Source of the DNA: Anoxybacteroides tepidamans
GTDB taxonomy: Bacteria; Bacillota; Bacilli; Bacillales; Anoxybacillaceae
Reading direction: 5' to 3'
DNA length: 64,000 bases
Assembly (NCBI RefSeq): GCF_014201465.1
Contig: NZ_JACHEP010000001.1
Coordinates: 228,833 to 292,832, forward strand
A model generated the notes under the pieces. That model was given only the letters and a program-made list of their open reading frames with translations. It was not told the origin of the DNA and searched no databases. Every line of letters starts with the position of its first letter. The stretch's first letter is position 1. Positions 924 to 54,510 of this stretch are shown one piece after another. A program made the translations under genes and the position numbers.

Positions 924-942
924 TTTCTTCCCCCTTGTTTTT

Positions 943-974: not shown

Positions 975-1035
975 GCAATAATTTTCTGAAAAATAAGTTT
1001 TTGAAAATAAAAATAATTTTGTGCATTTTGTGCAT

Positions 1036-7608: not shown

Positions 7609-9225
7609 ATGAAGAAATTATTGTTAGGAACTGTTTTGGCAGGAGTTGTTGCGATTGGTGCAGCTTGCTCAAATAATTCTTCGATGCAAGGACACGACAT
7701 GTCCAACATGAATACAAAAAAAGAAAATACTTCCAACGAATCGAGTAAGCAGCAATTGCCTTTAGCAACCGATACAGAAGTGTTATCTGGGAAAGAGATT
7801 AACCTTACTGCGAAGGAAGCATTATTACAAATCAACGATCAAGTCAAACTCCCGGTATACACGTATAATGGATCTGTACCCGGTGCGCAAATTCGCGTGA
7901 AGCAAGGGGATAAGGTGAAAATTGTTTTAAAAAATGAATTGCCAGAACCGGTTACGATTCACTGGCACGGCTATCCTGTTCCAAATAACCAAGATGGAGT
8001 ACCGGGTGTCACGATGGACGCCATTAAACCGGGTGAAACGTTTACGTATGAATTTACAGCAACCGTGCCGGGAACGTATTGGTATCATTCTCATCAAAAA
8101 AGCGCAGAGCAAGTGGACAAAGGACTGTACGGAACATTAATCGTAGAACCGAAAAATGAAGAAAAAGTCGATCGAGATTACACGCTTGTATTAGATGAAT
8201 GGATGAGCAATCCGAATGCGGAAAACGGAAACAATATGAATATGAGCGGAAATATGGATATGAGCGGCATGGATCATAGCAATATGAATATGAGTAATAA
8301 TAATGGAAATAGCTCTAATAATCAACAAATGGACATGAATAGCATGGGGCATAACATGAATATGTACGATATTTTCACGATTAACGGAAAAAGCGGAACG
8401 TCTATCAAACCGTTAAAAGTGAAAAAAGGCGAAAAAGTGCGACTTCGTCTTGTCAATGCAGGATATATGTCCCACAAGCTTCATTTGCATGGACATGAGT
8501 TTAAAATTGTCGCAACAGACGGACAGCCATTAAAAGATCCGCAACCAATCAAAGATGAACTGTTGAATATCGCTCCGGGCGAGCGCTACGACATTGAGTT
8601 TATCGCCAATAACCCGGGTGAATGGTTACTAGAATGTCACGGGAATATGAAAGGTACCGATGGCATGAAAGTAAAAATTCAATACGAAGGACAAGCAAGC
8701 AACACGGACAAAGCGAACGCAAAAGAAAACCTCCCTGTGGTAGATATTACAAAATACGGAAAATATGAGACAGGTCCATTTACGTTAGACCAAAAATATG
8801 ATGTAGAGTACACAATGGATTTAGGAACAGCTATGGGCAAAAATGGTATGATTTTCACGATTAATGGTAAAACGTATCCTGACACAGCGCCGATCAATGT
8901 GAAGACAGGAGATTTAGTAAAAGTCAGAATTGTGAACAATTCACCAAAAGATGTACATCCGATGCATTTACACGGACATTTCTTCCAAGTATTAAGCAAA
9001 AACGGTAAGCCAGTCACAGGCTCTCCATTGATTAAGGATTCGTTAAATGTAAACCCTGGTGAAGAATATGTCGTCGCCTTTAAAGCGGATAATCCGGGAA
9101 ATTGGATGTTCCATTGCCATGACTTGCATCATGCTTCAGCGGGAATGGTCACAGAAGTAAAATATACCGATTACAAATCGGACTATACCCCAGATCCGAA
9201 TGACACAACGAATAAAGGGGAATAA
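7609..9225 (+). CDS. Multicopper oxidase (laccase/CueO-like), lipoprotein
   Basis: Multicopper oxidases oxidise substrates such as Cu(I) and reduce oxygen to water; copper-island members protect the envelope by converting Cu(I) to Cu(II). The protein has 538 residues. A signal peptide ends in AIGAAC, a lipobox with Cys20, so it should be tethered outside. Copper ligand motifs are visible in order: IHWHGYPVP and YWYHSHQKS in domain 1, HLHGHEF in domain 2, and HPMHLHGHFF with HCHDLHHASAGM in domain 3, the last carrying the type 1 Cys, His and axial Met. A Met/Asn-rich insert at about residues 205-250 resembles the Met-rich Cu(I) segment of CueO. A TGGAGGG ribosome site precedes the ATG. A Csp gene follows behind a terminator. 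Confidence 0.93.
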   Translation: MKKLLLGTVLAGVVAIGAACSNNSSMQGHDMSNMNTKKENTSNESSKQQLPLATDTEVLSGKEINLTAKEALLQINDQVKLPVYTYNGSVPGAQIRVKQGDKVKIVLKNELPEPVTIHWHGYPVPNNQDGVPGVTMDAIKPGETFTYEFTATVPGTYWYHSHQKSAEQVDKGLYGTLIVEPKNEEKVDRDYTLVLDEWMSNPNAENGNNMNMSGNMDMSGMDHSNMNMSNNNGNSSNNQQMDMNSMGHNMNMYDIFTINGKSGTSIKPLKVKKGEKVRLRLVNAGYMSHKLHLHGHEFKIVATDGQPLKDPQPIKDELLNIAPGERYDIEFIANNPGEWLLECHGNMKGTDGMKVKIQYEGQASNTDKANAKENLPVVDITKYGKYETGPFTLDQKYDVEYTMDLGTAMGKNGMIFTINGKTYPDTAPINVKTGDLVKVRIVNNSPKDVHPMHLHGHFFQVLSKNGKPVTGSPLIKDSLNVNPGEEYVVAFKADNPGNWMFHCHDLHHASAGMVTEVKYTDYKSDYTPDPNDTTNKGE

Positions 9226-37198: not shown

Positions 37199-37900
37199 TC
37201 ACACTGTCAAAAACTGTTGAACGTCGCTTTTGCTCGTTTTACTCACATGCCCTTGCGCAACAACTATGCCGCGATCGAAAATGTAAAAGTAGTCGGCGCA
37301 TGAAAAAGCTAAATCTAGGCTATGCTCGACAAGTACAATCCCGACCATTTTTTCTTTTGCAATTTTCATGATAACATCACGAATCAGTTGTACGATCGAT
37401 GGCTGAATGCCTTCCATCGGTTCATCAAGCAAAAGCAGCTTTGGCTGTCCAATCAGCGCACGGGCAATGGCAAGCTGCTGCTGTTGCCCGCCGCTTAAAT
37501 CTCCTCCTTTTCGATGCAACATGTCTTTTAATATAGGAAATAATTCATAAATCTCTTCTAAAACGTGTGACGAATTGATTTTTTTAGGAAGCGCCTCGAA
37601 TCCTAACAATAAATTTTCTTCGACCGTTAATGTCGGAAAAATTTCCCTTCCTTGTGGAACATAGCCAATTCCTCTTCTTACCCTCTGTTCCGGCGGCAAT
37701 GATGTAATATCCTCACCCTCCCATTCGATGTTGCCCCTCATCGGTTTGATCAATCCGATGATGCTTTTCATAAGCGTCGTTTTTCCGACACCATTTCGCC
37801 CTAGCACTGCCGTCACACATCCTTTTTGTACGTCCATGCTTACGTTTTCTAACACAACGCTTTGTTCATATCCGGCTGTCACATTTCGAACGCTTAACAC
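37199..37900 (-). CDS. urtE: Urea ABC transporter ATPase UrtE
   Basis: The 233-residue LivF-type ATPase has Walker A in [15 protein letters not shown], the signature [16 protein letters not shown] and Walker B in [14 protein letters not shown]. It powers urea uptake with UrtD. It overlaps the end of urtD by seven bases. Confidence 0.94.
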
Positions 37901-38643
37901 GCTTTCTCCTCTCTTCCTAAATAAATTTCGACTACTTTTTCATTTTGCTGAATGTCTTCCATCGTCCCTTCACACAATACTTTCCCTTCATGCATCACCG
38001 TCACTTGCTTTGAAAAACGACGCACAAAATCCATATCATGTTCGACAATCACAACTGCACAATCGCGAGCAATTTCATGGATCAATTCCCCTGTGCGTTC
38101 CCGTTCCGCGGCACTCATTCCTGCAATCGGTTCATCAAGCAGCAACAGTTGAGGAAACTGAATCAGCTGCATGCCGATTTCGAGCCACTGCTTCTGACCG
38201 TGTGAAAGAGAACCAGCCTTTTGATCAGCATAATCGAGTAATTCGATACGTTGTAATAACGTGATGATCATATCCCGATCTGCCTCTGACATCTTTGCCC
38301 GTAAAACAGCAAATAGCCCGCGATCTTGTTTTAAAGCCAGTTCCATGTTTTCCCATACGGTCAACTGATGAAAAATCGATGGGCTTTGAAATTTCCGAGA
38401 AATGCCAAGCTGTACAATTTTGTGTTCCGGCATATCGGTAATATCGTGTGAGTAAAATAACACTTTTCCGCTGCTTGCCCTTGTTTTACCGCAAATCACA
38501 TCTAATAGCGTCGTCTTTCCCGCTCCGTTTGGCCCGATTAAAAATCGTACTTCATGTGGATAAACTTTCAAATCAGCCCCTTGCAACGCATAAAACCCGT
38601 CAAAATCTACTGACACGCTGCAGCACATGAGAACTGGCTTCAT
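37894..38643 (-). CDS. urtD: Urea ABC transporter ATPase UrtD
   Basis: The 249-residue LivG-type ATPase has Walker A in IGPNGAGKTTLLDVICG, the signature LSHGQKQWLEIGM and Walker B in LLLLDEPIAGM. The conserved FQSPSIFHQLTVWEN stretch follows the Q-loop. The frame overlaps the end of urtC by 44 bases. Confidence 0.94.
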   Translation of the reverse strand: MKPVLMCCSVSVDFDGFYALQGADLKVYPHEVRFLIGPNGAGKTTLLDVICGKTRASSGKVLFYSHDITDMPEHKIVQLGISRKFQSPSIFHQLTVWENMELALKQDRGLFAVLRAKMSEADRDMIITLLQRIELLDYADQKAGSLSHGQKQWLEIGMQLIQFPQLLLLDEPIAGMSAAERERTGELIHEIARDCAVVIVEHDMDFVRRFSKQVTVMHEGKVLCEGTMEDIQQNEKVVEIYLGREEKAC

Positions 38644-39673
38644 TTGCTCTCACTTCCCCTTGTTTTTTTCGTTGTCTAACAGACTGATATACGCCTGTTA
38701 GCCCGTTTGGCAAGAACAGCACGACAGCAATAAATAATCCCCCTAAAAACAGCAGCCATATATCAGGATAATTTTCGCTAAAAAAGCTTTTCGCACCGTT
38801 CGTCACAATGGCACCGATGATCGCTCCGATTAACGAACTTCTTCCGCCGACGGCAACCCATAGCACCATTTCAATGGAAGGAATAATTCCCATCATTGCC
38901 GGAGAAATAAGCCCTACCTGCAGCACAAACATCGCTCCTGCTATTCCGGCAAAAGCGGCGGAAAGGCTATATACAAACACTTTATACGTAGTCGGATTAA
39001 ATCCTAAAAAGCGGACCCGGTTTTCACTATCCCGAATCGCAACAAGCACCCGACCGAATCGACTCCTCGTTAACCAGCGCGAGAAAAGAAACATCGACAA
39101 AAGCAAAACAACGGTTAATAAATAAAGAACGATTTGTGTAAGAGGAGAAGATAGCGAGAACCCAAAAACGGTAGAAAAATTCGTTAACCCGTTTGTTCCC
39201 CCGGTCCATTCTTGCTTTCCGATAAATAATGTCACAAAAACAACCACGATCGCTTGGGATAATAATGAAAAATAAACACCTTTAATTCGATTTCTAAACG
39301 TAAAATAGCTTAAAAACATCGCTAGAAGCACCGGAACAATAATGGCGGAAGAAATGGCAATAACCGGCTGTTCAAACGGTTTCCAAAACCAAGGGAGCTT
39401 ATTTACACCGCTCCATTCCATAAAGTCGGGTAAACGACCACCGGAAGCCTCCAGTTTTAAATACATCGCCATGCAATAAGCTCCTAAGCCAAAATATACA
39501 CCGTGACCTAAACTTAAAATGCCGGTATAGCCCCAAATTAAAGAAATGCCGATCGCAATCATCGCAAAACAAAGAAATTTCCCAAGCAGCGACAAACGAA
39601 ATTCCGTTAAATAAAACGGTGCTAAAAACAAAGCAAGAAAAAACAGCCAATACATCCAGTTCTTTTTGATCAT
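38600..39673 (-). CDS. urtC: Urea ABC transporter permease UrtC
   Basis: The 357-residue LivM-type permease has about ten membrane helices and the family segments GYTGILSLGHGVYFGLGAY and GVYFSLLSQAIVV. It forms the membrane channel with UrtB. It begins 12 bases after urtB. Confidence 0.94.
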   Translation of the reverse strand: MIKKNWMYWLFFLALFLAPFYLTEFRLSLLGKFLCFAMIAIGISLIWGYTGILSLGHGVYFGLGAYCMAMYLKLEASGGRLPDFMEWSGVNKLPWFWKPFEQPVIAISSAIIVPVLLAMFLSYFTFRNRIKGVYFSLLSQAIVVVFVTLFIGKQEWTGGTNGLTNFSTVFGFSLSSPLTQIVLYLLTVVLLLSMFLFSRWLTRSRFGRVLVAIRDSENRVRFLGFNPTTYKVFVYSLSAAFAGIAGAMFVLQVGLISPAMMGIIPSIEMVLWVAVGGRSSLIGAIIGAIVTNGAKSFFSENYPDIWLLFLGGLFIAVVLFLPNGLTGVYQSVRQRKKQGEVRANEASSHVLQRVSRF

Positions 39674-39685
39674 TTTTGACCCCCC

Positions 39686-40585
39686 TTAATCGAGTGATCT
39701 CGTTTTCATGCTCACAAGTCCAGAAGGCTTCCATTGCAAAAAGACAATAATCAACGCAAACGTAATCACTTTTGCCATCGTGGCACTTGTCGAATATTCG
39801 GTCAATGTACCAATCAATCCGATTCCAAATGCCCCTAAAACTGTTCCGATTACTTTCCCTACTCCCCCTAAAATAACGACCATAAATGCATCGACAATAT
39901 AATACGTTCCGATCGTTGGACCAATCGGACCGAGCAGCGTTAATGCACAACCTGCCAAACCCGCAAAGCCGGATCCGATCGCAAAAGCGTATGCGTCTAC
40001 TTTTTGCGTAGAAATGCCAAGGCATGCGGCCATATCCCGGTTAAGTGTAACCGCCCTTATTCTTCGGCCAGCTGCTGTTTTATTTAAATACATATAAAGT
40101 ACAAAGATTGACACGGCGACAAATGCTAAAATGAACAACCGTTTATACGGAAACACCATTCCCGCAACATGAACCCCTCCATCTAACCATTCGGGAGGAA
40201 GTACCGCCACATTGGGAGCACCGAAAATCGTCCGCGCCATTTGCTGTAAAATCAAGCTCACCCCCCACGTTGCCAGTAAACTATCCAACGGCCGGTGATA
40301 TAGGTGGTGAATTAACGATTTTTCCAATCCTAAACCAAGGAGAGCAGAAACAAAAAAGGAGACAGGAATAGCGATGACATAATAATAGTCCATCGATTGC
40401 GGTGCATACTGCGCAAAAAACTGTTGAACAACGTACGTCGCATAAGCTCCAACCATAATCAATTCGCCATGAGCCATGTTGATGACGCCCATTAACCCAA
40501 ACGTAATCGCCAACCCAATGGCAATGAAAAGCATGATCGAACCTAAGCTTAAACCGTTAAACAATTGTGTCACAAAAACTGACAA
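39686..40585 (-). CDS. urtB: Urea ABC transporter permease UrtB
   Basis: The 299-residue LivH-type permease has about eight membrane helices and the segments VINMAHGELIMVGAY and DAFMVVILGGVGKVIGT. The start is TTG at 40585, six bases after AAGGGGGGTA; the frame is open further up but lies in the short gap after urtA. Confidence 0.94.
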   Translation of the reverse strand: MSVFVTQLFNGLSLGSIMLFIAIGLAITFGLMGVINMAHGELIMVGAYATYVVQQFFAQYAPQSMDYYYVIAIPVSFFVSALLGLGLEKSLIHHLYHRPLDSLLATWGVSLILQQMARTIFGAPNVAVLPPEWLDGGVHVAGMVFPYKRLFILAFVAVSIFVLYMYLNKTAAGRRIRAVTLNRDMAACLGISTQKVDAYAFAIGSGFAGLAGCALTLLGPIGPTIGTYYIVDAFMVVILGGVGKVIGTVLGAFGIGLIGTLTEYSTSATMAKVITFALIIVFLQWKPSGLVSMKTRSLD

Positions 40586-40644
40586 GGAAATACCCCCCTT
40601 CTTTAGGAGAGGAAAGGAGCATAACCCCTTTCCCACAAATGTAT

Positions 40645-41904
40645 TTAATTCATCAAGTCTTTTGCCCATGGATAGCTTTTTAAATAAGGATCTGGCTTAA
40701 CAGCTTCCCCAGAATTCCATAATTCTTTAAATTGACCATCCGGTTGGATTTCTCCTATTCTCACAATCTTCCATGTATGTTGTGTTTCCCCGTCGATTTT
40801 TACCGTTCCGCCAGGCGCCTTATACTCGATGCCATCAGCTGCTTTTTTCACCTTATCTACATCAAACGAGCCGGCTTTTTTCACCGCTTCGGCCCATAAA
40901 TGAACAGCAAAGTACGCTGCTTCGATCGGGTCATCTGTGACGCGGTCTTTTCCATACTTCTCTTTATATTTCTCTACAAATACTTTGTTTTCCGGTGTGT
41001 CCGTTGACTGAAAATAGTTCCATACCGCAAGATGGCCGGCCAATACATCACCGCCAATTCCGCGAATTTCTTCTTCGGCGATGCTCACAGACATAACCGT
41101 TAAATCCTTTGCTGTAATCCCAGCGTCTTTTAATTGTTTGAAGAACGCGACATTGCTGTCCCCGTTGAGCGTGTTAAACACTACATCTGGCTTCACGTCT
41201 TTAATTTTGCTAATAATCGTGCTATAATCTGTATGGCCAAGCGGCGTATATTCTTCACCGACCAATTGCCCGCCTTCCGCTTTTAATTGAGCTTTAATAA
41301 TTTTATTTGCCGTGCGCGGGAACACATAATCCGAACCAAGCAAGAAAAATTTCTTTCCTTTATTTTGTAACAACCAGCTTACCGCTGGAACGATTTGTTG
41401 GTTCGTCGTGGCACCTGTATAAAAAATATTTGGTGAAGACTCCATCCCTTCATATTGGACTGGATACCAAAGCAACCCATTATTTTGTTCGACGACCGGA
41501 AGCATCGCTTTGCGGCTCGCTGATGTCCATCCGCCAAAGATTGTCACTACTTTATCTTTCTGTAGTAGCTTTTTCGCCTTTTCCGCAAACGTTGGCCAGT
41601 CTGAGGCCCCATCTTCAATGACAGGCTCAATTTTTTTTCCTAATAACCCCCCAGATTCATTAATCTCTTCAATCGCCATTAATTCCGCATCTCGCAGCGA
41701 TACCTCGCTGATCGCCATCGTGCCGCTCAATGAGTGAAGTATCCCTACTTTGACAGTGTCGTTTGTTTCCGATGTGCTGCTTTCTTTCTTCTTTTCTTTC
41801 GCCTCATCGACTGCCGATGATGCAGCACATCCGCTCAGTACCAATAAACTTCCGCATAAAAGCAAGCTGAGCCATTTCAATCCATTCCCTTTTAACCTCT
41901 TCAT
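40645..41904 (-). CDS. urtA: Urea ABC transporter substrate-binding lipoprotein UrtA
   Basis: The 419-residue receptor has a signal peptide ending in LVLSGC, a lipobox. The mature part is a LivK/FmdD-type periplasmic-binding fold with [44 protein letters not shown] and [12 protein letters not shown], all typical of UrtA. It captures urea outside the cell. It is the first gene of the urtABCDE-ureABCEFGD-ureH series, preceded by a GlnR-type promoter. Confidence 0.96.
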
Positions 41905-42334: not shown

Positions 42335-43804
42335 TCAATACCTCGCCGTCACCATTTTTTTGCGCGTATAAAATTCGACGCCGTCGCGGCCATTTGCATG
42401 AAGGTCCCCGTAGAAAGAGTTTTTATATCCAGAGAATGGGAAAAATGCCATCGGTGCCGGGACTGCCACGTTTACCCCAAGCATTCCGGCATCGATTTCT
42501 TCGCGGAATTGACGGATCGCTTTCGCGCTATCGGTATAAATGCACGCGCCGTTCGCAAATTCGGACTTGTTGGCGATTCGAATGGCTTCATCCAAATCAC
42601 GAGCCCGAACAACCGACAAGACAGGAGCGAAAATTTCATCTGTCCAAATCGTCATGCACGGTTTGACGTGATCAAAAATCGTCGGGCCGATAAAGTATCC
42701 TTCCCCGCTTGCCGCGGCGTCGCAGCGGCCGTCACGGACAAGCATCGCTCCTTCTTTTTCGCCGATTTCAATATATTTGATGGTCCGTTCTTTATGCGTC
42801 TGGCGAATGACCGGACCTAAAAAGACATCTTCCTGCAATCCGTTGCCGATTTTAATCTCGTCCGCCGCTTTCTTTAAACGTTCCACAAGCTCGTCGGCAA
42901 TATTGCCGACAGCTACGACAACAGAACACGCCATGCATCGTTCTCCTGCCGAACCAAACGCGGCATTAATGATATTGGTAACGGCATAATCTAAATCCGC
43001 GTCCGGCATGACGATCGAATGGTTTTTCGCCCCGGCTAGCGCCTGCACCCGTTTTCCATGAGCCGCTGCTGTTTTATATACATATTCCGCTACCGGCTGC
43101 GAACCGACGAAAGAAATAGCTTTAATGTCTTGATGCTCTAAAATTGCGTTTACTACATCATGCGCTCCATGAACAATGTTGAGTACTCCCGGCGGCAGAC
43201 CGGCTTCCATAAATAGTTCAGCTAAACGATTTGCCAGCATCGGAGTGCGTTCTGACGGCTTTAGCACAAACGTGTTTCCGCAAGCAATCGCCAAAGGGAA
43301 CATCCAGCATGGGACCATCATTGGAAAATTGAAAGGCGTAATTCCCGCAACGACACCAAGCGGATAACGGTACATGCCTGATTCGATTCCTGTGGCAATG
43401 TCTGGAAGTTGCTGCCCCATCATTAAAGTAGGAACCCCTGCGGCAAACTCTACGCATTCGATTCCACGTTGAACCTCCCCGTACGCTTCATCATAGCTCT
43501 TGCCGTTTTCTAATGTAACAAGACGTGCTAACTCTTCCCAATGTTCAACAAGAAGCTGCTGGTAGCGGAACAAAAGGCGGGCACGGCGCGGGACCGGAAC
43601 TTTTCGCCACTCTTGAAACGCTTCTTTCGCCGCCGCAACCGCTGCATCTAACTCTTCGCGTGAAGAGATAGGCACTTTTGCCAATACTTCCCCTGTTGCG
43701 GGGTTTGGCACGATTTCTTCCTTTCCCGAAGCTGAAGCAATCCATTTTCCCCCGATAAAATTTTTCAGTGTTTTCGTTTCCATCATAGACGTCATCAATT
43801 TCAT
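42335..43804 (-). CDS. mmsA: CoA-acylating methylmalonate-semialdehyde dehydrogenase
   Basis: The 489-residue aldehyde dehydrogenase has [20 protein letters not shown], the NAD-site [12 protein letters not shown] and the catalytic Cys in [17 protein letters not shown], the signature of the MmsA/IolA group. These enzymes turn methylmalonate or malonate semialdehyde into propionyl- or acetyl-CoA in valine, propanediol-related or inositol breakdown. It follows the alcohol dehydrogenase gene by 14 bases. Since no iol genes are near, the pair more likely oxidises an alcohol through its semialdehyde. Confidence 0.92.
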
Positions 43805-43818
43805 ACCCCTCTCCTTTT

Positions 43819-45015
43819 TTAATAGCGCATTACTTTATGATCGAATTGATAGTCATAGCAGACATGGTAAAGCTGGACAATTTCTTCGTGAGTCGGCACG
43901 CGCGGATTATTTCCCGGGCTGCCGCTCGCCAACGCATCGGCTGCCATTTTATCAACAACCTTGTCAAACTGCTCTTTTTCAATTCCCCATGTTTTCATAT
44001 TTGGAATATGGAGATCGCGGCAGAGCTGCTTCACTTCCGAAATAAGCACATCGGCTGCTTCTTCATCGGAGACATTCTTTAACTCCGCCTTGATCAGACG
44101 GGCGATCGCCGCAAGTCTTTCTATCGCGCTCTCTTTTGTAAATTCCAGCACCCCCGGTAGCAGCATCGCATTCGACACGCCGTGCGGAACATGAAACAGT
44201 GCACCAATCGGCCTTGACATCCCGTGGACAAGTGTCACCGATGCGTTGGAAAATGCAACACCTGCCACCATCGCACCGATTGCCATCTTCTCACGCGCAT
44301 CAATATCGTTGCCGTTTCCATACGCTTGACGCAAATTCCCCATGATCGCTTCGATCGCCGATAGCGCCAACACATCGGTCACTGCATGGGCGCGCCGCGA
44401 AATATACGCTTCGATCGCATGGCATAGCGCGTCTACTCCAGTTGCCGCGGTCACCGACGGCGGACACGATACGGTTAAAAGCGGATCGACAATCGCCACA
44501 GCCGGCAATAGTTCGGGCTGGGAAATCATCATTTTGACGTTCATATTTGTATCAATGATGACCGTAACTTTCGTGACCTCGGAACCGGTGCCTGCGGTCG
44601 TCGGAACAGCGATGAGCGGAAGCGGTTTGTTCGCAAACATCTTGACATTGCCAACATAATCGCTGATCGTTCCTTTATTTGTCATCATAACCGCCACCGC
44701 TTTTGCCGTATCAATGCAGCTCCCTCCGCCAACAGCAATGATGACATCACAGCCTTCCTCGCGGCAAATGTCTAGCGCTTCCTTCACATGAATATCGGTC
44801 GGCTCCTTATCCACCCCTGTATACTTGGCAAATGGAAGCGCTTCTTTCCGTAAATGCTCTTCACAAAGCGCGACATTACCAAGCTGTTCCATGATCGGAT
44901 CGCTGATAATAAGCACTTTGTTCCCAAGCAGACGCGCCTGATTCCCGACTTCGTTAAAAGCGCCGCGTCCATATAAAATCCGGCTCGGCATGAGAAGTTG
45001 ATACACTTGTGACAT
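43819..45015 (-). CDS. Iron-containing alcohol dehydrogenase
   Basis: The 398-residue protein belongs to the Fe-ADH family, with [13 protein letters not shown] for nucleotide binding and metal ligands in the segments [33 protein letters not shown] and the downstream His residues. The ATG at 45015 follows GGAGGAGG; the frame is open 16 codons further up into the regulatory region. It oxidises or reduces an alcohol and aldehyde pair with NAD, and the neighbouring MmsA would take the aldehyde on. A sigma-54 promoter lies 44 bases upstream. Confidence 0.9.
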
Positions 45016-45032
45016 CGTTCCTCCTCCTTTTT

Positions 45033-45074
45033 TGATAACGCTTTCAATATGATGATCATGCAAAAGTCATGCCA
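45033..45074 (-). promoter_or_regulatory. Sigma-54 promoter and cre site of the adh-mmsA unit
   Basis: TGGCATGACTTTTGCA (45074-45059, minus strand) has the -24 GG and -12 GC with ten bases between, as in the consensus TGGCAC-N5-TTGCW. TGAAAGCGTTATCA (45046-45033) matches the CcpA cre consensus with one mismatch and covers the start site. The promoter should need the adjacent activator and be shut down by preferred sugars. Confidence 0.8.
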
Positions 45075-45136
45075 ATCCGGAATCTCTATTTTTTAACTAG
45101 TTTAAATATTCAGTTTTTTATTACCACAATAATACA

Positions 45137-45164
45137 CCGACAATTTCCCGACATATCCCCGACA
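45137..45164. promoter_or_regulatory. Three CCGACA repeats at 11-bp spacing (likely enhancer of the sigma-54 activator)
   Basis: CCGACA occurs at 45137, 45148 and 45159, exactly one helical turn apart, about 65-100 bases upstream of the sigma-54 promoter and just behind the activator gene. This is the usual place of an upstream activating sequence. Confidence 0.55.
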
Positions 45165-45188
45165 TATTTGTACATTAGTCCAACAAGT

Positions 45189-46922
45189 TTATAGATTATA
45201 TTTTTTTAGTTTTTCATAAAGCGTGGACCGATGCATGCCAAGTTTTCTCGCTGCCGCTGCTTTATTTCCTTTTTCCTCAATTAATGCTTGCTTGATTCTT
45301 TCGCGTTCATCATAATCAACAATGTCGCGCCAATGAGCATCTGTTTGCTCGATGATCTTTTTTCTTTCTTCCATTTCACGACCGTTTTTCATCAACAAGG
45401 CGGAAGAAAGAAGATGGGAGGGCAGGTGCTCTTTTTCAATTTTTTGCCCGTCCACCATCCCGACCAGCCACTCCACCACATTGACAAGCTCGCGAATATT
45501 TCCCGGCCATGAATAATCCATAAGCGCTTGCATCGCCTCTTTTGTGAATTCCTTTTGTTTTAAGCCGAACTGCTCGCAAACCCTTTCCATATAGTAGGCA
45601 AGTAAATAAGGGATGTCCATTTTTCGCTCCCGCAGGGCAGGAATGTGAATGCGAATAATATTGAGGCGGTAGAAAAGATCTTCGCGAAACTGCCCTTTTC
45701 GCACCATTTCCTCTAGATTTTTATTCGTTGCAGCAATGATGCGGACATCAAGCTCTATTTCCGCCACGCCGCCGACCCTCTCCACTTTTTTCTCCTCTAG
45801 CACCCGAAGTATTTTCGCCTGCATGTATAGCGGCATATCGCCTATCTCATCTAAAAATAGCGTTCCTTTATGGGCAAGTTGAAACTTTCCCAGCTTTCCT
45901 CCTTTTTTCGCCCCGGTGAACGCTCCTTCTTCATAACCAAATAGTTCTGCCTCCAGCAACGACTCCGGTATGGCCGCACAGTTGACGCTGACAAAAGTGC
46001 CGTCGGCATACGGACTTGATTGGTGAATCGCTCTGGCCAGAACCTCTTTGCCCGTTCCACTTTCCCCGGTAATTAGCACAGTAAATGGCACACGTGCCGC
46101 TCTCCTTACCATTTGTTTGATTTTAGCTATCGCTGCGCTGCGGCCGACAAGGCTATCCAAACTTGAAGTTTGTTTTTTTGGAGAAGCCGCACGTTTTACA
46201 TTCTTTTCTTTTTGACTAGCTTGACGCGATAGCTCTTGTACTCGCTGAAAAATTTGATACACTTCTGAAACTCCTTGAAAAATAAGCATTCCAATTGCCC
46301 CGATTACATTTCCTTCTCGCCAAATCGGAATGCGATGCACAACCATTGGTTGATCAAAAATTTTCTGAATAAACCCTCTTTCCGGAATACCCGATTCAAT
46401 GCAAATATGTAATCTCGTATTCTCAATCACTTCAGTCACATGCTTTCCGATCGCGTCTTCCCTATGAATACCGAGAAACTGACAATATGCTTTGTTTATT
46501 TCCCGAATAATGCCTTGCGCGTCCACAACAACAATTCCTTCATATGCTGAATCAAGAACTGTTTTCATCGTCTCCGCCATGCTTTGCGCCTCTTGTAATT
46601 CCAGTTTCAGCCGCTGGACCTTGGCGATCAGCTTCGAGACGGACGCATGGCTTTCGAGTGGAACATCGATCGGCTGTCCCTCTGTATGTTCCACCGCCGT
46701 TTTCTGCGCATTCCATAGCGACTCTATTGTCGCGTCGTCATCCCATTTGTCCGCCAACGCTTTTAGCAATGTCTTGCATGTCAACCGTCCTATTTTCCGA
46801 CGCTGATGGTCGATGACCGGAATTTCGTTTATCTCATAGCGGATAAACAACTGCATTGCTTCTTTTAGCGTCTGATCGGCACGCAACACGATTTCTTCAC
46901 ATCCATACGCGTTGCCGCACAT
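45189..46922 (-). CDS. Sigma-54-dependent transcriptional activator with CBS and PAS domains
   Basis: The 577-residue protein begins with a CBS-type domain ([13 protein letters not shown]), followed by a PAS domain ([21 protein letters not shown]), a coiled linker and the AAA+ core. The core has Walker A in [15 protein letters not shown], the sigma-54 contact loop [11 protein letters not shown], Walker B in [13 protein letters not shown] and the arginine-finger region. A Fis-type helix-turn-helix ends the protein ([20 protein letters not shown]). The ATG at 46922 follows AAGGGGGGA; the upstream open frame is not needed. It lies directly before the sigma-54 promoter of adh-mmsA and should control it. 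Confidence 0.93.
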
Positions 46923-47006
46923 GCAAAATCCCCCCTTCATCCTTTTACCTATTTTCATATTTTTCGCCGCAGGCAAGAAAAATCCTTTACCTCGATCTAT
47001 CGCCAC

Positions 47007-47229: not shown

Positions 47230-48234
47230 TTATACGTACAATTTCTTTTCTTTTAAATGCACTTTCTCTTTCACGCTAGGATTCACTAAATATTTAGGAT
47301 AATATCCCGATAATACATCAGCTACATTCTCGGCGGTTTTTCGTTTTAATTCGCTTTCAGATTCCTCAGAGTACCAAGCAACATGCGGTGTAATAATTAC
47401 ATTCTCCATTTTGAGAAGAGGATTATCTGGTTGAATAGGCTCATATTCTGTAACATCTAGGCCTGCACCTGCAATCTTCCCAGCCTGCAAAGCGCGAATT
47501 AATGCAGCCTCATCAATAACAGGACCGCGGGCTGTATTGACAATAAATAGTTCCTTTTTCGCAAGATCAAATTGTTCGTCGCTAATCATTCCACGTGTAT
47601 CTTTCGTCAACGGAGCATGGACGGAAATGTAATCAGATTGTTTAAATAGATCGTTTAATTCTACCAATTGAACATTTAATTGATTGGCTACCTCCTGTGG
47701 AATATATGGATCATAAGCAATGATATTTAAGCCAAAAGATTGTGCTTTTTTAGCTAATTCCTGTGGAATTCTTCCTAGTCCTACAAGCCCAAGTGTTCTG
47801 CCACGTAATCGATAAATTGGTTTTCCTAAATTAAAATTCCACACTCCATTTTTTGTTTCACTATTTAATTTCACAACCTTACGCGTTAATGAAAGCAACA
47901 AAGCAAAAGCATGGTCAGATACTTCATCTACTGAATAATCTGTTACATTGGCAACGATGATGCCCTTTTGGGTAGCCGCATCCACATCGATGGTATTGAC
48001 ACCTACTCCATATCGTGAAATAACTTTACAATTTTCTAAATTTGCAATTACTCTCGTGGAGATAGGGGCATATTGATTAATAATCGCATCGGCATCTTTG
48101 CAGACAGAAATAACCTCTTCCTCCGTACGACACTGTGCAGCTATGAGCTCTACATTTAATAAAGAAAGTACTTCTTTTTCTGGAGCTAGTGTTTGAAATT
48201 CATAATCGGTAACTACTACTTTAAATTTTTTCAT
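47230..48234 (-). CDS. D-isomer-specific 2-hydroxyacid dehydrogenase (CtBP-like)
   Basis: The 334-residue protein has the Rossmann motif TLGLVGLGRIPQELAKKA, the catalytic Arg in VNTARGPVIDEAAL, the Glu in LDVTEYEPIQPDNP and the His in VIITPHVAWYSEES. It interconverts a 2-oxo and a 2-hydroxy acid with NAD(P). The ATG at 48234 follows GAGGGAGGAG. It sits at the end of the sugar-acid cluster, so a 2-oxo acid or glycerate-type substrate is likely, but this is inference. Confidence 0.9.
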   Translation of the reverse strand: MKKFKVVVTDYEFQTLAPEKEVLSLLNVELIAAQCRTEEEVISVCKDADAIINQYAPISTRVIANLENCKVISRYGVGVNTIDVDAATQKGIIVANVTDYSVDEVSDHAFALLLSLTRKVVKLNSETKNGVWNFNLGKPIYRLRGRTLGLVGLGRIPQELAKKAQSFGLNIIAYDPYIPQEVANQLNVQLVELNDLFKQSDYISVHAPLTKDTRGMISDEQFDLAKKELFIVNTARGPVIDEAALIRALQAGKIAGAGLDVTEYEPIQPDNPLLKMENVIITPHVAWYSEESESELKRKTAENVADVLSGYYPKYLVNPSVKEKVHLKEKKLYV

Positions 48235-48286
48235 TTTTCTCCTCCCTCTCATCACAAACAATCGAGCGAATAAATATAAAGTTTAT

Positions 48287-49435
48287 TTACCACTCAGCAA
48301 CTGAACCATCTTTATGACGCCAAACAGGGTTTTTCCAATTGTGTCCTGTTTCTGCCATTTTCCTTACATACTCTTCGTTAAGCTCTATACCCAACCCTGG
48401 TCCCTCTGGAATTTTTACATATCCATTTTTATATTCAAACACAGAAGAGTTTACTAAATAATCCAGAAGATCATTTCCTTGGTTATAATGTATACCGAGG
48501 CTCTGTTCTTGAATAAAAGCATTGTAGGATACCGCATCAATTTGCAAGGAAGCCGCTAATGCAATTGGACCTAACGGACAATGTGGGGCTAATGCAACAT
48601 CATAAGCTTCAGCCATCACAGCTATTTTTCTCACTTCGGTAATACCACCCGCATGGGAAAGGTCGGGCTGAATAATATCTACATAACCCTCGGATAGAAT
48701 GTTTTTAAAACTCCAACGAGTAAACATCCTTTCTCCAGTCGCAATTGGAATATTGGAATGCTTGGCAACCTCACGCAGTGCTTCATTATTTTCCGGTAAT
48801 ACAGGTTCCTCGATAAACATAGGATGATAAGGTTCTAGTTCTTTTGCTAAAATCTTTGCCATTGGTTTATGGACACGCCCATGGAAATCAATTCCTATAT
48901 CGAAATCATCACCAGCAACTTGTCGGATAATTGCAACCCTTTCTATCGTTTCATCAATCTTTTTATGAGAATCGATATACTGAAGTTCCTCTGTAGCATT
49001 CATTTTTACAGCTGTAAACCCTGCATTTTTCGCCTTTTTTGCTGCTTCAGCAATATCGCTTGGGCGGTCCCCCCCGATCCAACTGTAAACACGGATAGAA
49101 TCTCGAACAGGACCGCCTAGCAATTGATAAACGGGTGCGTTAAAATATTTTCCTTTTATATCCCAAAGTGCTTGATCAATTCCTGATATGGCGCTCATTA
49201 AAATTGGGCCTCCACGATAAAATCCCCCGCGATAAAGAACAGTCCAGTGATCCTCAATTTTCAACGGATCTTTTCCTATTAAATATTCGCTTAATTCCTC
49301 TACCGCCGCTTTCACCGTATTTGCCCTTCCTTCTACAATTGGTTCACCCCAACCGACAATTCCTTCGTCGGTATTAATTTTGAGGAATAGCCATCGCGGT
49401 GGAACGATAAAAGTTTCCAATTTAGTAATCCGCAT
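48287..49435 (-). CDS. Galactonate dehydratase-like enolase-superfamily enzyme
   Basis: The 382-residue protein matches D-galactonate dehydratases of the mandelate racemase branch. It shows [19 protein letters not shown], the metal-ligand segments [29 protein letters not shown] and [10 protein letters not shown], and the His in [17 protein letters not shown]. Such enzymes remove water from an aldonic acid to give a 2-keto-3-deoxy acid. Galactonate is the best guess for the substrate, but related aldonic acids are possible. No DgoK or DgoA kinase-aldolase pair is visible. Confidence 0.88.
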
Positions 49436-49738
49436 TTCGCACTTTCTCCCCTATATCATCAGCGTTTCGTATTTTCCCGATAAACTTTTGGTCAATTTTT
49501 TTCAAATATTAAAGCATCCCTCTTCTTACTTGAAGTCATTTTTTATAGACAATATGAATGGGATGTAAAACAAAAATGTAACTTATATAGATTAACAATT
49601 AATAATATTCCATCAATTCTGGTTGCGATCGTATCTAAGTTATTGTGTAAACTCTTCTCTCTGTTCCATGAACTTTCATCATGGAACACAAATTGGCTTT
49701 TTGCCCGCTCTTTTTTACATGTACAATCTACGGAATTG
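49436..49738. other. Intergenic region with a perfect 10-bp palindrome
   Basis: TGTTCCATGA (49662-49671) pairs with TCATGGAACA (49679-49688) around seven bases. There is no T-run, so it may be an operator or an RNA-stabilising stem between the UxaA-type and dehydratase genes. No gene is supported. Confidence 0.35.
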
Positions 49739-50905
49739 TTAAAATGTGGGGCCAATTCTCCAAATGCCAAAATCATATTGCTTTAAAATTTCTGATTTCG
49801 TAAGCTTTCCGGAAACCGTTAATAAAAGCTCGTTAAAAATTCTTTCGCCTACCGATTCTAGAGACTCCGTTCCTTCAATGATTGTTCCTGCATTAATGTC
49901 CATGTTTTCCTTCATCTTTTCAAACATCGGAGTGTTAGTAGCAATTTTAATGACGGGTGCAATTGGCGAGCCTGTTGGTGTTCCACGTCCGCTCGTAAAT
50001 AAAACGATTTGCGCCCCACCGGCAACCATTCCTGTCAACTGTTCGATATCATGACCAGGGGTATCCATCCATACTAACCCTTTTTTGGTTGGTTGTTGGG
50101 CATAATCGATTAGTTGTTGCAATGGTCTAGTGCCAGCCTTGGCCGCTGCTCCAAGAGATTTTTCTTCTAGCGTTGTGAGTCCTCCTTTTCGATTCCCTGG
50201 ACTCGGATTTCCTGTACGAATATCCACTCCCATCATGATTGCTCGTTTTTCCATCGCCTCAATGACTTCATATACTTTTTTAGCTACTCGATCGTCAACA
50301 GCGCGATTTGCTAAAAGATGTTCTGCTCCGATTAGTTCGGTTGTTTCTGCTAAAATAACCGTACCTCCTCTGTCAACAATCATGTCGCTTACATAGCCAA
50401 CTGCCGGGTTGGCTGAAAGCCCCGAACAGGCATCTGATCCTCCGCATTCTGTTCCTACAATTAATTCACTAATATCAAATGGTTCTCGAACTATAGCAGA
50501 AGCATCCTGTACCATTTTTGTTGCAACTCTCGCTGCCTCTGCGATCGCTCCAAGCGTCCCCCCATGATCTTGAATCGATACAAGTTCAACAGGCTTGCCG
50601 CTTTTGGCAATTTCCTGTGCAATACTTCTTCCTTGGTGCGTTTCACAACCTAGTCCCATGACAATTACGCCATACACATTAGGATTTGTTCCCATTCCGA
50701 CGTATGTCCGAAATGTTTGATCATAATCAACACCTACTTGCGCGCAACCATGCTGATGAATAAAAGATACAGTGCCATGCACAAGTTCTGTTACCTGCTT
50801 TGCCGCCTGCGTAGCACAAACAATGGTAGGCAATATAAGCACATGATTGCGAACTCCTACTCGACCGTCAGAACGCCTATATCCCCATAGCTGATTGATT
50901 TTCAT
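49739..50905 (-). CDS. UxaA-family dehydratase, large (C-terminal) subunit
   Basis: The 388-residue protein matches the main domain of altronate/galactarate dehydratases, with YRRSDGRVGVRNHVLILPT, GCETHQGRSIAQEIAKSG, GTECGGSDACSGLSANPAVG and SGRGTPTGSPIAPVIKI. These enzymes remove water from sugar acids with a metal in the active site. The small domain is a separate gene just upstream, with a 29-base overlap. An AAGGGGAG ribosome site precedes the ATG. The substrate is not certain. Confidence 0.88.
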   Translation of the reverse strand: MKINQLWGYRRSDGRVGVRNHVLILPTIVCATQAAKQVTELVHGTVSFIHQHGCAQVGVDYDQTFRTYVGMGTNPNVYGVIVMGLGCETHQGRSIAQEIAKSGKPVELVSIQDHGGTLGAIAEAARVATKMVQDASAIVREPFDISELIVGTECGGSDACSGLSANPAVGYVSDMIVDRGGTVILAETTELIGAEHLLANRAVDDRVAKKVYEVIEAMEKRAIMMGVDIRTGNPSPGNRKGGLTTLEEKSLGAAAKAGTRPLQQLIDYAQQPTKKGLVWMDTPGHDIEQLTGMVAGGAQIVLFTSGRGTPTGSPIAPVIKIATNTPMFEKMKENMDINAGTIIEGTESLESVGERIFNELLLTVSGKLTKSEILKQYDFGIWRIGPTF

Positions 50906-51200
50906 TTATTTTATCTCCCCTTCCCCTTTTCCCCTCTACATTATGGGTATGCACATGCTCGCCTACGGCAATATTCTTAGAGGCAACTCCAATAACTTCC
51001 CCATATTTGAATATATCCATACCTTTCTCAATAGGAACAACAGCAAATTTATGACCAAACCCAATATTTTCTTTGATTTCAATCTCGTACTCTTTTTCCT
51101 GACATGTTACTTTTACTATACTACTAGCGGGGATGTAGTCTAAAGCAGTGGCGACGTTATCTTTGGGATTCATCATAACAGTACGGTAAAAAGACGTCAT
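50877..51200 (-). CDS. UxaA-family dehydratase, small (SAF domain) subunit
   Basis: The 107-residue protein is a SAF domain with the metal-binding His pair in VGEHVHTHNVEGKRGRGDK. In full-length altronate dehydratases this is the N-terminal part of a single chain; here it is separate. Split forms also occur in sulfolactate lyases (SuyA/SuyB). It follows the U32-like gene by 16 bases. Confidence 0.87.
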   Translation of the reverse strand: MTSFYRTVMMNPKDNVATALDYIPASSIVKVTCQEKEYEIEIKENIGFGHKFAVVPIEKGMDIFKYGEVIGVASKNIAVGEHVHTHNVEGKRGRGDKINENQSAMGI

Positions 51201-51216
51201 ATATCCCTCTTCTCCT

Positions 51217-52182
51217 TTAAACTGGCGTTTTTTTGAACGAACCGATTACTGGGATACCCAATCCTTCTGCTCCTAGCTTAGACATCACTGCTTCCGGGTA
51301 GTATTGCTCAATAATCCGCATTCCTAATGCTGCTCGACGAACTCTTTCCCGGCATAAATCAATATTAACTGATTCTAAATGTTTCCCTGATGGATAGACA
51401 TCAGGGTGATTGCGTAACCCAAATTTAATATAAACAGGGGATAAAATACGAATAATTTCGGGAATTTCGTAATGTCTAATAAATCCGCCAAAGCCGTCCG
51501 GTACCTCTACGTATATATCAATTGGAATGTCAGTTACTTGACGGATAGCTGCCAGTTTAGGCAAAGTTAAAGCGGTAGGAACGTTATACGTATCTGCACC
51601 TAGTTCCGCCATTAGCTTAATAGACACAGGATTAGAGGCCATCATTTGGACGGATACTTTAATCACAAAATCTTGTGGTAGTATTCCTTGTTTTTTCATT
51701 TCCTTCGTTAAAAGTAACAAACCTTCATCAGCAACTAAGGCACCACGTAATCCTAAACTTGCTCCTCTTTTTAAATCCTCAATGGCATAAACGAGCTGAT
51801 CGATGCCTTCGTGTCTAAGCCCCACAACTTTCCCTGAACTTGTAAATGGTTGAGCACTAATATCCCATGTACCCCTAGGGCCCACAAAAAGGCTTAACTC
51901 CATCCCTCTACCCGCGCAAATCTGGCACATTTCCCTGATCTCATCATCCGTTAACAACATAATCCCACTTCCTTGCGATACCCGATGAATGGTTACTCCC
52001 AATCGATCTGCTTCCTCAAGCGTTGCTTGTAAAGCACGTGGACCTTCTACACTCGGAATCTCAATCCGGTATTGCGCTCCATCAGGGAAGCGCTTGATGG
52101 ATGTAGGCAGATTATAGAGATCATTGCTTGGGTAACCTAATGATTGAAGAAATTCTCTCGTTTCTTTCATAAATACACGCAT
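51217..52182 (-). CDS. U32-like TIM-barrel protein of unknown function
   Basis: The 321-residue protein resembles the barrel of peptidase U32 proteins, with ADEGLLLLTKEMKKQG, NPVSIKLMAELGADTYNVP and VEVPDGFGGFIRHYEIPEI. It lacks the Cys-rich cluster of U32 RNA-modifying enzymes in the parts I can identify. Members of this group are found in sugar-acid clusters without a known role. The ATG at 52182 is very close to the AGGAAGG site, and an ATG four codons later is an alternative. Its place between a DapA-type lyase and the dehydratase genes suggests an isomerase or lyase, but this is inference. Confidence 0.6.
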   Translation of the reverse strand: MRVFMKETREFLQSLGYPSNDLYNLPTSIKRFPDGAQYRIEIPSVEGPRALQATLEEADRLGVTIHRVSQGSGIMLLTDDEIREMCQICAGRGMELSLFVGPRGTWDISAQPFTSSGKVVGLRHEGIDQLVYAIEDLKRGASLGLRGALVADEGLLLLTKEMKKQGILPQDFVIKVSVQMMASNPVSIKLMAELGADTYNVPTALTLPKLAAIRQVTDIPIDIYVEVPDGFGGFIRHYEIPEIIRILSPVYIKFGLRNHPDVYPSGKHLESVNIDLCRERVRRAALGMRIIEQYYPEAVMSKLGAEGLGIPVIGSFKKTPV

Positions 52183-52294
52183 CCTTCCTCTTATTTACTT
52201 TAAAGCTGATGAAGCATAGTGATAGAAGCTGATAGAAGCAACAATCAATTATGTTTTTTGTCAGTAATCCAATTTGCAATACGATGTTGAATGT

Positions 52295-53203
52295 TTATTT
52301 GTCGTAGGAAAATAAATGATTTTGTTTTAGAAATAAGTGAACATCCTTTTTTAAAGGATCACATTCTGTAATAGGCAACTGATGACTCGTTTGATACCCT
52401 AAAATCAGCTGATGAACTGCTTCCTTAACTGCAATAAATAGCGGCTGTGACAGTTCATAAATTGACATAAGCTTGAGAATAGATTCATTTAAAACTAGTA
52501 CTTCTTGGTATTGACCGGTTGTAAAACTCTCAAATAGTCGGACGGATAGTTCTGGAAGGAACGTAGCAGTACCATTAATTGCACCAGCTGCCCCCATTTG
52601 CAACGCAGGAAGGATGAGATCGTCGAAAGCGGCAAAAACAGCAAAATCGCTCCTTTGATGTGTAATACTAATTAATTGTCGAATATGCCCTAACCTTTCT
52701 GTCGTATCTTTAATCCCAACTATGTTCTCGTGGTCCATGGCTAGTCTTAATATAAGGTCAGGTGATAAATCTTGACCTGTAAGTGACGGAATATTGTATA
52801 TCACCAAAGGAATTTTAAGGTTTTGAACTACGTTCATATAGTAGTCATATAATTGGCGTTCCGTAAATTTCCAATAAAATGGATTTACTACTAGTACACC
52901 GTCCGCTCCAACACTTTCAGCGTGTTGTGATAAATAAATGGTATCTTTTAATGAGGTAGTTCCTGTACCAACTAAAACTGGAACACGTCCATCTACATAT
53001 CGAACCATTTTCTCTACAAAAAGTTTTCTTTCTTGAAGAGGCAAAGAGGAGAACTCCCCCATACTCCCCATATACAGCAATCCATGAACTCCTTTTTTAA
53101 TTAAATGATCCGCGAGTATATAATTGGCTTCCCAATCAAATTCCCCATCCTTATTGAACAACGTAACAACAGGTGGAATGATTCCTTTAAATTTATAATC
53201 CAT
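52295..53203 (-). CDS. DapA/NanA-family lyase or dehydratase
   Basis: The 302-residue protein has the family features GLLYMGSMGEFSSL, the Tyr in LVIYNIPSLTGQDLS and the Schiff-base Lys in NIVGIKDTTERL. Known members include 2-keto-3-deoxygluconate aldolase and L-2-keto-3-deoxyarabonate dehydratase. In this cluster it should act on the 2-keto-3-deoxy acid formed by the dehydratases. The ATG at 53203 lies eight bases after AAGGA; the frame is open to 53236, overlapping larC. Confidence 0.88.
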   Translation of the reverse strand: MDYKFKGIIPPVVTLFNKDGEFDWEANYILADHLIKKGVHGLLYMGSMGEFSSLPLQERKLFVEKMVRYVDGRVPVLVGTGTTSLKDTIYLSQHAESVGADGVLVVNPFYWKFTERQLYDYYMNVVQNLKIPLVIYNIPSLTGQDLSPDLILRLAMDHENIVGIKDTTERLGHIRQLISITHQRSDFAVFAAFDDLILPALQMGAAGAINGTATFLPELSVRLFESFTTGQYQEVLVLNESILKLMSIYELSQPLFIAVKEAVHQLILGYQTSHQLPITECDPLKKDVHLFLKQNHLFSYDK

Positions 53204-53232
53204 TTCTTTCATCCTTCCGAAATTAATATAAT

Positions 53233-54510
53233 TCAATTATGATTCTTCTCTCCTTGACCTTTCCTAGCGTATTCCATCGCTGCTGTATATACTTCTAAGA
53301 AAGTAACTTGATGATCAGTAGCCGCTTTTTTTACATCTTCGTATTCTGGTACTTGTCTTATTATTTTTTCATTTTGTATAGCCTGTTTTACACGAATATT
53401 TCCGTACGGCGTAGAAACACTCACACTCTTTCTTCCTAAAATACTTCTTGTACATACACTTTTCCTAACGCCAAGGGTCGTGGTTTCCTTAAGAATAAAT
53501 TGTTCACATTCTCCTACACTATTGAAAGAAGCCAAAACAGTAAGAAGAACCCCAGGACGATTTTTTTTCATAAAGATCGGTGTATAAAACACATCGACTG
53601 CTCCCTTTTGAAAAAGCCCCTCCATTACATATCCCAATGCTTCACCCGACATGTCGTCTACATGGCATTCTAAAATGTAAATTATTTCTTGTTGTTGCGA
53701 AGGTAATGGATAGTCACTCCCTAACGAATCATTAACCATTTCTCCTACTACAACACGTAAAACATTCGGCTGATTCGGGAAATCATGTGTTCCAGCACCA
53801 TACCCAATTGACAATATTGTCATTGCCGGAATTGGTCCAAACGAAGACACTTGACTTTTCACAATCCCAGCACCGGTCGGCGTTGTTAGCTCAAATGGCA
53901 AAGTGCTCGTCTTTATTGGTACATCGCGAAGTATCTCCAACGTCGCAGGAGTTGGAACAGGGTAGATTCCATGAGCACAATCGATATATCCGCTCCCAAC
54001 TGGGATAGGGGAAGAAACGATTTGATCAATTTGAAGCTCTTCTAACGCAACAGCCACGGCGACAATATCAACAATTGAATCAATTGCACCGATCTCGTGA
54101 AAATGAACCTTTTCAATAGGAATGTCGTGAATCTTTGACTCTGCCATGGCAATAGAATGAAAAATTTGTTCACTGCGTTTCTTTACTTCCGGACGCAATG
54201 CTGACTGATTGATCATCTCAACTATGTGAGCATAATGCCTATGTGAATGTGCGATTGAGCTATTTAGCGAATTTTGATAATGGGAATGGGATTCATGTTT
54301 GTGTTCGAAGTTGCCGTCTAGGATGACATCTAACTTCGTTGCAGAAATCCCTTTTTTGATGACTTGGTTCCATTGTAATTTATACCCCGAAATCGGCAGT
54401 TTTTTTAATTCTGTTTCAATTCGTTCCATTGATACTCCTGCGTCTACTAAAGCACCGACCATCATATCGCCACTAATTCCCGAAAAACAATCAAGATAGA
54501 GAACTTTCAT
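53233..54510 (-). CDS. larC: Nickel-pincer cofactor biosynthesis protein LarC
   Basis: LarC inserts nickel into the pyridinium-3,5-bisthiocarboxylate mononucleotide with CTP. The 425-residue protein starts LYLDCFSGISGDMMVGALVD, has a His-rich stretch (HKHESHSHYQ and SIAHSHRHYAH), FHEIGAIDSIVDIVA, ELTTPTGAGIV and the C-terminal LECHVDDMSGEALGYVMEGL. It is one uninterrupted frame, while in Lactiplantibacillus plantarum the two halves are joined by a ribosomal frameshift. It overlaps larB by four bases. Confidence 0.94.
   Translation of the reverse strand: MKVLYLDCFSGISGDMMVGALVDAGVSMERIETELKKLPISGYKLQWNQVIKKGISATKLDVILDGNFEHKHESHSHYQNSLNSSIAHSHRHYAHIVEMINQSALRPEVKKRSEQIFHSIAMAESKIHDIPIEKVHFHEIGAIDSIVDIVAVAVALEELQIDQIVSSPIPVGSGYIDCAHGIYPVPTPATLEILRDVPIKTSTLPFELTTPTGAGIVKSQVSSFGPIPAMTILSIGYGAGTHDFPNQPNVLRVVVGEMVNDSLGSDYPLPSQQQEIIYILECHVDDMSGEALGYVMEGLFQKGAVDVFYTPIFMKKNRPGVLLTVLASFNSVGECEQFILKETTTLGVRKSVCTRSILGRKSVSVSTPYGNIRVKQAIQNEKIIRQVPEYEDVKKAATDHQVTFLEVYTAAMEYARKGQGEKNHN

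Follow-up and report, generated by a model that had tools for sequence, protein, structure and literature searches.

The question raised by this locus is how an operon headed by a gene for an iron-dependent alcohol dehydrogenase (ADH) is controlled from the short region in front of it. In the window (the whole stretch of 64,000 nucleotides analysed here), the minus strand carries, in order, the gene for a sigma-54 enhancer-binding activator (EBP), the control region, the ADH gene, a semialdehyde dehydrogenase gene and, after a gap, a urea-type ABC transporter. An array of repeats, a promoter and a cre site all lie on the minus strand between the EBP and ADH genes (Table 1). The EBP stop codon is at 45191-45189, and the array begins 3 bp further on, so that the initial annotation was right to describe the activator gene as ending beside the control region. 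The genome (3.39 Mb in 54 contigs), that of a Bacillus-type and probably thermophilic bacterium, contains 12 matches to the sigma-54 activator domain, seven of them strong (E < 1e-60). Profile search found one Sigma54_DBD match, that is, sigL is present, and one protein scores above its cut-off as CcpA.

Table 1. Features of the operon and its control region, in the order in which they are read on the minus strand.
Feature	Position	Strand	Remarks
EBP gene	45189..47006	-	Pfam, translation, AlphaFold; true start codon uncertain
Array unit 1, TGTTGG (weaker)	45180..45185	-	
Array unit 2, TGTACA (weaker)	45169..45174	-	with unit 1 forms one TGT-N11-ACA dyad, 45185-45169
Array unit 3, TGTCGG	45159..45164	-	
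Array unit 4, TGTCGG	45148..45153	-	
Array unit 5, TGTCGG	45137..45142	-	first base 69 bp from the GG of the -24
-24/-12 sigma-54 promoter, TTGGCATGACTTTTGCATG	45057..45075	-	predicted +1 at 45048
cre (CcpA site), TGAAAGCGTTATCA	45033..45046	-	about +3 to +16
Shine-Dalgarno, AAGGAGGAGG	45020..45029	-	
Iron ADH, probable first operon gene	43819..45015	-	ATG at 45015; PF00465/PF25137
CoA-acylating (methyl)malonate-semialdehyde dehydrogenase	42335..43804	-	TIGR01722; PDB 1t90, 717 bits

Two neighbouring groups of genes may be described here. The urea-type ABC transporter genes (37894-41904) lie downstream of the operon on the same strand, UrtA being identified by TIGR03407 and the rest by eye. 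A sugar-acid catabolic cluster occupies 47230-54510; it includes a galactonate dehydratase (713 bits), a 2-hydroxyacid-dehydrogenase-like gene for which all scores are below cut-off, to which inspection by eye adds altronate-dehydratase-like pieces, a DapA-like aldolase and a LarC-like protein (53233-54510).

Pfam identifies four domains in the EBP, namely CBS (residues 39-85), PAS (147-240), PF00158 (286-454) and HTH_8 (567-603). The protein thus has the AAA+ sigma-54 interaction domain and the Fis-type helix-turn-helix (HTH) of an NtrC-type EBP, together with a GAFTGA motif read in the translation. Its CBS-PAS input had been called unusual, which does not hold: the PrdR model (NF041552) matches residues 39-604, and the layout is therefore not unique to this EBP. 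Assignment as PrdR itself was rejected (469.9 bits, against an NCBIfam equivalog cut-off of 795), as was assignment as AdhR, the input of which is GAF-PAS, Pfam listing CBS and PAS and no GAF. The nearest named relatives are in Parageobacillus thermantarcticus (89%) and P. caldoxylosilyticus (81%). When eight relatives were scanned, two CBS stretches were found in L045, L130, L138, L152 and L153, one in L099 and L103, and none in L047 (Ammoniphilus). The single CBS of the window therefore appears to be a two-CBS module in reduced form, the reduction having apparently taken place in part of the array clade. L045 combines two CBS stretches with the array and the cre, so that the CBS reduction and the array and cre events are separable. 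The AlphaFold model (mean pLDDT 68, pTM 0.43, 11 sequences) has one CBS-like unit (47-86), a long helix with the PAS domain (about 123-242), and a first helix of the DNA-binding domain at 559-577, the start of which is uncertain since residues 535-560 have pLDDT below 50.

The initial annotation reported three CCGACA repeats exactly 11 bp apart. These are present, as TGTCGG on the minus strand (units 3 to 5 in Table 1), but they are only the best units of a longer array, two weaker ones having been missed. Reading the intergenic regions of relatives, where the same spacing recurs, led to the recognition of five head-to-tail TGT half-sites with a spacing of 11-10-11-11 over 49 bp (45185-45137). 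Three TGTCGG units at 11-bp steps, with up to two mismatches, occur at this site only in the genome, and the reversed control gives none.

The array follows the EBP across the family. With up to two mismatches, the five-unit pattern is present in a single copy in 15 of the 41 family genomes (reversed control 0/41), and all 15 are among the 17 that have an EBP ortholog (E <= 1e-130); none of the 24 genomes lacking the EBP has it. The two EBP genomes that depart from the pattern are G029 (locus L111), with a spacing of 11-11-11-11, and G023 (locus L106), in which the array is irregular. In the 14 kb fetched around the EBP of G023 (L106/L179) there is no ADH and no semialdehyde dehydrogenase, which together with the irregular array would fit relaxed selection. 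The locus consists of the EBP, the array, the promoter and a cre with one mismatch, followed by what appears by eye to be a TRAP-transporter-like frame. At the level of the order, the pattern occurs in seven of 397 genomes, these being five family members with the EBP and two of 380 genomes outside the family, the latter not exceeding the reversed control (6/397). The pattern is blind to other spacings, such as the 11-11-10-11 of L045 and L046, which lie outside the family. An EBP adjoining an ADH with a -24/-12 match in between is found in many genomes of the order and class.

The near-consensus -24/-12 match of the initial annotation is present. In TTGGCATGACTTTTGCATG there are 12 bp from the second G of the GG to the C of the GC, and a match with identical GG-GC spacing is found at all 20 array loci. 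The distance from the last array unit to the GG is 59-60 bp at 10 of the 20 loci and 69-72 bp at nine; at L104 it is 50 bp, or 60 bp if an extra TGT is set aside, which would bring the shorter group to 11. The two groups are about one helical turn apart, and the grouping follows the tree.

A cre had been placed over the start point. The site is present and perfect, TGAAAGCGTTATCA fitting the consensus TGWAANCGNTNWCA fully, but its position has to be corrected: if the C of the GC is counted as -12, transcription would start at 45048, and the cre would extend from about +3 to +16, a little beyond this predicted start. Scanning from 60 bp upstream of the -24 to the ADH start finds a perfect cre at 14 of the 20 array loci, one with at most one mismatch at 18 and one with at most two at 19, for which dinucleotide shuffles give expectations of 0.00, 0.16 and 2.38. 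The corresponding counts at the other 30 loci are 0, 1 and 6 (expected 0.01, 0.27 and 3.12). At 17 of the 20 array loci the best cre starts 12-14 nt after the C of the -12, although at one of these (L099) it is a poor match with three mismatches. L045 and L046 have a perfect cre starting 37-38 nt upstream of this C, and in L047 the best cre is weak (two mismatches; 8 of 100 shuffles are as good). The operon thus has the consensus-matching, conserved cre expected of a member of the CcpA regulon. As judged from sequence conservation, the switch in the window is real and conserved, and it is probably controlled by sigma-54 and CcpA.

We then consider the geometry of the array. Fifty control regions were scored, the window and 49 others, after removal of the duplicates L043, L044, L128 and L151 (equal to L099, L097, L045 and L047, respectively); all are EBP-ADH intergenic regions except L106, which has no ADH and for which a fixed 300-bp stretch after the EBP was taken. 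In 20 near relatives including the window, direct TGT pairs at a distance of 10 or 11 bp form chains, for which 0-14 of 500 shuffles are as good. The window has four direct pairs (0/500 shuffles) as against one inverted pair (p 0.05), and its array falls outside the canonical Clostridiales class of upstream activating sequence (UAS), TGT-N10-12-ACA. Upstream of the -24, this inverted arrangement is absent from 14 of the 20 array loci, occurs once in four (the window, L108 with p 0.07, L100 with 0.112 and L099 with 0.212) and twice in two (L045, p 0.002; L046, p 0.016). The other 30 regions comprise 24 that are inverted TGT-N10-12-ACA by rule, five that are undecided (L131, L146, L156 and L167, treated as inverted for the tree, and L172, treated as none), and L152, which is direct by rule but was classed as mixed, since a pentamer microsatellite accounts for most of its 20 direct pairs. 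This long GATGT repeat lies between the EBP stop and mixed direct and inverted TGTC sites.

In a maximum likelihood tree of 55 EBPs (19 array rows; L107, for which the extracted protein had 17 residues, left out), a single branch (100/99) separates the array rows from the rest. There is one change of state, with dyad rows on several branches around the array clade. The head-to-tail array is likely to be derived from the inverted dyads of more distant EBP-ADH pairs, a direction that is likely rather than proven since the outgroup does not fall on one side of a branch and not all deep branches are starred. As the switch maps to a single branch, other changes shared by the array clade are correlations with n = 1. 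L153 has two TGTCGG-N6-CCGACA dyads before its -24/-12 match, that is, the same half-site in another geometry, and groups with the array clade at 91/84 (not starred, and on a long branch). It is one of ten loci with a relative of the EBP and no ADH; three of these (L153, L166 and L174) have an inverted pair up to about 105 bp upstream of the -24/-12 match, the other seven show no such inverted arrangement, and none of the ten has a chain of three TGT near the promoter.

Which protein would bind the array? Base 4 of the half-site varies with a recognition-helix residue of the EBP (L107 left out; residue unread for L165 and L172). At dyad loci with Gln, base 4 is A in 62, T in 6 and C in 2 of 70 half-sites, and with Glu it is C in 10, A in 9 and T in 1 of 20. 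Smaller groups are Asp (C 3, A 1), Ile (C 3, A 1), Arg (T 2, C 1, A 1) and Lys (A 2, T 1, G 1). At array loci, base 4 with Glu is C in 48, A in 24, T in 15 and G in 5 of 92, a count that takes in a few TGT from outside the array, and with Asp it is C 2, A 2, T 1. This covariation, confounded by descent and weak within Glu, supports the adjacent EBP as the predicted binder. A comparison of 16 of the 20 array-clade proteins (L107 left out) with 28 others ranks Trp559 first of 562 columns in separating both groups (16/16 against 0/28), with Gln244 and Lys148 tied with it in frequencies; Trp559 is also absent from 12 further, more distant rows. It stands at the start of the predicted first helix of the DNA-binding domain, a helix that in Fis-type domains probably forms the dimer interface.

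The gene families of the operon give clues as to the signal. The ADH scores below cut-off in all 17 NCBIfam models, the best being lactaldehyde reductase (324 of 523), and among solved structures it is closest to methanol, 1,3-propanediol and lactaldehyde oxidoreductases. The second gene is above its curated cut-off (TIGR01722, 639.8 bits against 448.5). Together with the permease and SDR genes found at related loci, this suggests a beta-hydroxy acid, or its semialdehyde, as substrate or signal. In the window the two genes are 14 bp apart (43804-43819) with no permease between them; it is likewise missing from this position in L175, L180, L183, L186 and L187. L187 has a permease copy after the dehydrogenase and L183 a 35% relative further on. 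A GntP-type permease lies between the ADH and dehydrogenase genes at seven of 17 loci (L043, L045, L046, L176, L177, L178 and L182), that of L177 being a 36% identical copy. The dehydrogenase precedes the EBP gene in L047, and none is shown for L179 and L184. L185 is without the iron ADH and has, between the EBP and the dehydrogenase, a 3-hydroxybutyrate-dehydrogenase-type SDR (644-1429, minus strand; 342 bits, cut-off 307). In L043 (P. caldoxylosilyticus NBRC 107762), the dehydrogenase matches as three pieces at 8497-9083, covering residues 263-457 only, and so looks broken.

We consider it quite probable, from the sequence features and their conservation, that this is a substrate-induced catabolic operon in which the EBP acts from the five-unit array on the sigma-54 promoter and CcpA acts at the cre. 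The EBP would sense an intracellular metabolite through its PAS domain, candidates being 3-hydroxypropionate or another beta-hydroxy acid, or the corresponding semialdehyde. It would bind the helically phased array of five TGT(C/A)GG-like half-sites in the same orientation, contact sigma-54 RNA polymerase about 70 bp downstream of the array and open the promoter. The ADH and the CoA-acylating semialdehyde dehydrogenase would then oxidise the substrate to the acyl-CoA, and in the presence of preferred sugars CcpA on the cre would block initiation or early elongation. The outline of the initial annotation, in which the adjacent activator works through the repeats with sigma-54 and CcpA represses, is supported by the conservation; the three-unit array, the cre over the start and the unusual CBS-PAS input are the parts that have been replaced. 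A more far-reaching proposal is that the dyads were rebuilt into a one-orientation array of five sites along with a remodelled helix (Trp559), so that monomers load on one face of the DNA, and that sensing of the metabolic state moved in the same lineage from the protein, in which CBS is reduced, to the DNA, in the form of the cre. Within the array lineage, the three family members scanned have one CBS each, the Ammoniphilus locus has none and L045 still has two. As a whole, this joint proposal is doubtful.

Binding to the array could also follow a more conventional pattern, with the EBP binding as ordinary dimers, the dyad at 45185-45169 nucleating, and the other TGT serving as weak or overlapping half-dyads, in which case the array would be an elaborated cluster of dyads. 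Fis-type HTH proteins usually bind dyads. Units 1 and 2 together make up a TGT-N11-ACA dyad not only in the window but also in L099 and L100 (the motif is present in L045 and L046 as well), and at least one TGT-N10-12-ACA pair is found at 6 of the 20 array loci, so that a dimer might bind to one dyad. It may be added that the site of a D. vulgaris EBP has been drawn with three half-sites (PMC4641369). However, the other 14 array loci have no such pair upstream of the -24, dyads of 17 bp would overlap at an 11-bp period, and the whole clade retains the 11-10-11-11 spacing or one close to it. We therefore regard dimer binding as somewhat unlikely. Direct repeats about 11 bp apart are also bound by OmpR-type response regulators such as PhoB and PhoP; the TGTC-type repeats resemble Pho boxes. 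In the family genomes, however, the array follows the EBP (15 of 17 genomes, against 0 of 24 lacking it), once per genome and beside its gene, with a half-site resembling that of the dyads at homologous loci, and we reject this reading as very improbable. We also reject, as practically negligible, the reading of the repeats as a chance purine-rich stretch, which is contradicted by their single occurrence in the genome and by the conservation of their spacing in the clade; outside the family, the matches do not rise above the reversed control.

The cre might be decorative, or its target might be transcription that reads through from the EBP gene and not the sigma-54 promoter. By eye there is no terminator between the EBP and ADH genes in the window's group, and for B. 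subtilis rocG it has been proposed that read-through meets a roadblock at the cre (PMC4348106). On the other hand, the perfect cre of L045 and L046 lies instead just upstream of the -24, and hence stays tied to the promoter region, and several g3 loci (including L101, L105, L107 and L111) have, by eye, a hairpin and T-run after the EBP and still a cre with 0-1 mismatch. This makes a decorative cre or one acting on read-through improbable, and the preferred reading is that CcpA acts on the sigma-54 promoter.

Several known systems resemble the locus in part. Pseudomonas aeruginosa PilR, the response regulator of pili and a sigma-54 activator, is said to have several tandem TGTC-type sites, and the enhancer of rocG is reportedly placed differently from that of the window. 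The rocG gene of B. subtilis (SigL, RocR, CcpA) has a SigL promoter with a cre just downstream and repression by CcpA, as predicted here, with another activator and another substrate; a sigma-54 promoter plus downstream cre is as such already known from there (PMC4348106). At adhA1-adhA2 of Clostridium beijerinckii, a sigma-54 activator, AdhR, with SigL likewise drives iron-type ADH genes, acting through three upstream sites of which mutation of any one severely impaired the promoters (PMC7017808). AdhR differs in its GAF-PAS input and its role in solvent formation, and the passages of that paper that concern it contain no cre; its motif is of the inverted TGT-N10-12-ACA class (PMC6615313), unlike the direct array. 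PrdR (NF041552) shares the CBS-PAS-AAA-Fis layout, but it controls proline reductase and has an inverted UAS (PMC6615313). In Pseudomonas denitrificans an mmsA-type semialdehyde dehydrogenase gene is induced by 3-hydroxypropionate; its regulator MmsR, unlike the EBP, is LysR-type and uses dyads and a promoter with a -35 element, not sigma-54 (PMC6441110). The general link is in print, a 2025 survey counting class IV ADH among the sigma-54 targets of Bacilli and Clostridia (PMC12316311). A mention of Geobacillus in PMC3162934 concerns CelR, a LevR-like activator.

Literature searches, with most subscription journals outside their coverage, found no description of this array or of a direct-repeat sigma-54 enhancer in these bacteria. 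What is possibly new, as far as these searches tell, is therefore the replacement of dyads by a helically phased direct enhancer of five units, in a clade that also shows CBS reduction and a cre; its parts are of known kinds.

The usual picture of sigma-54 activators is one of dimers that bind palindromic enhancers and come together into rings. An orthologous pair from the same protein family and with the same target gene, one using dyads and the other a direct array, would make it possible to test directly how site geometry, DNA-binding domain dimerisation and ring assembly are linked. The control region might also serve as a compact promoter, induced by a metabolite and repressed by sugars.
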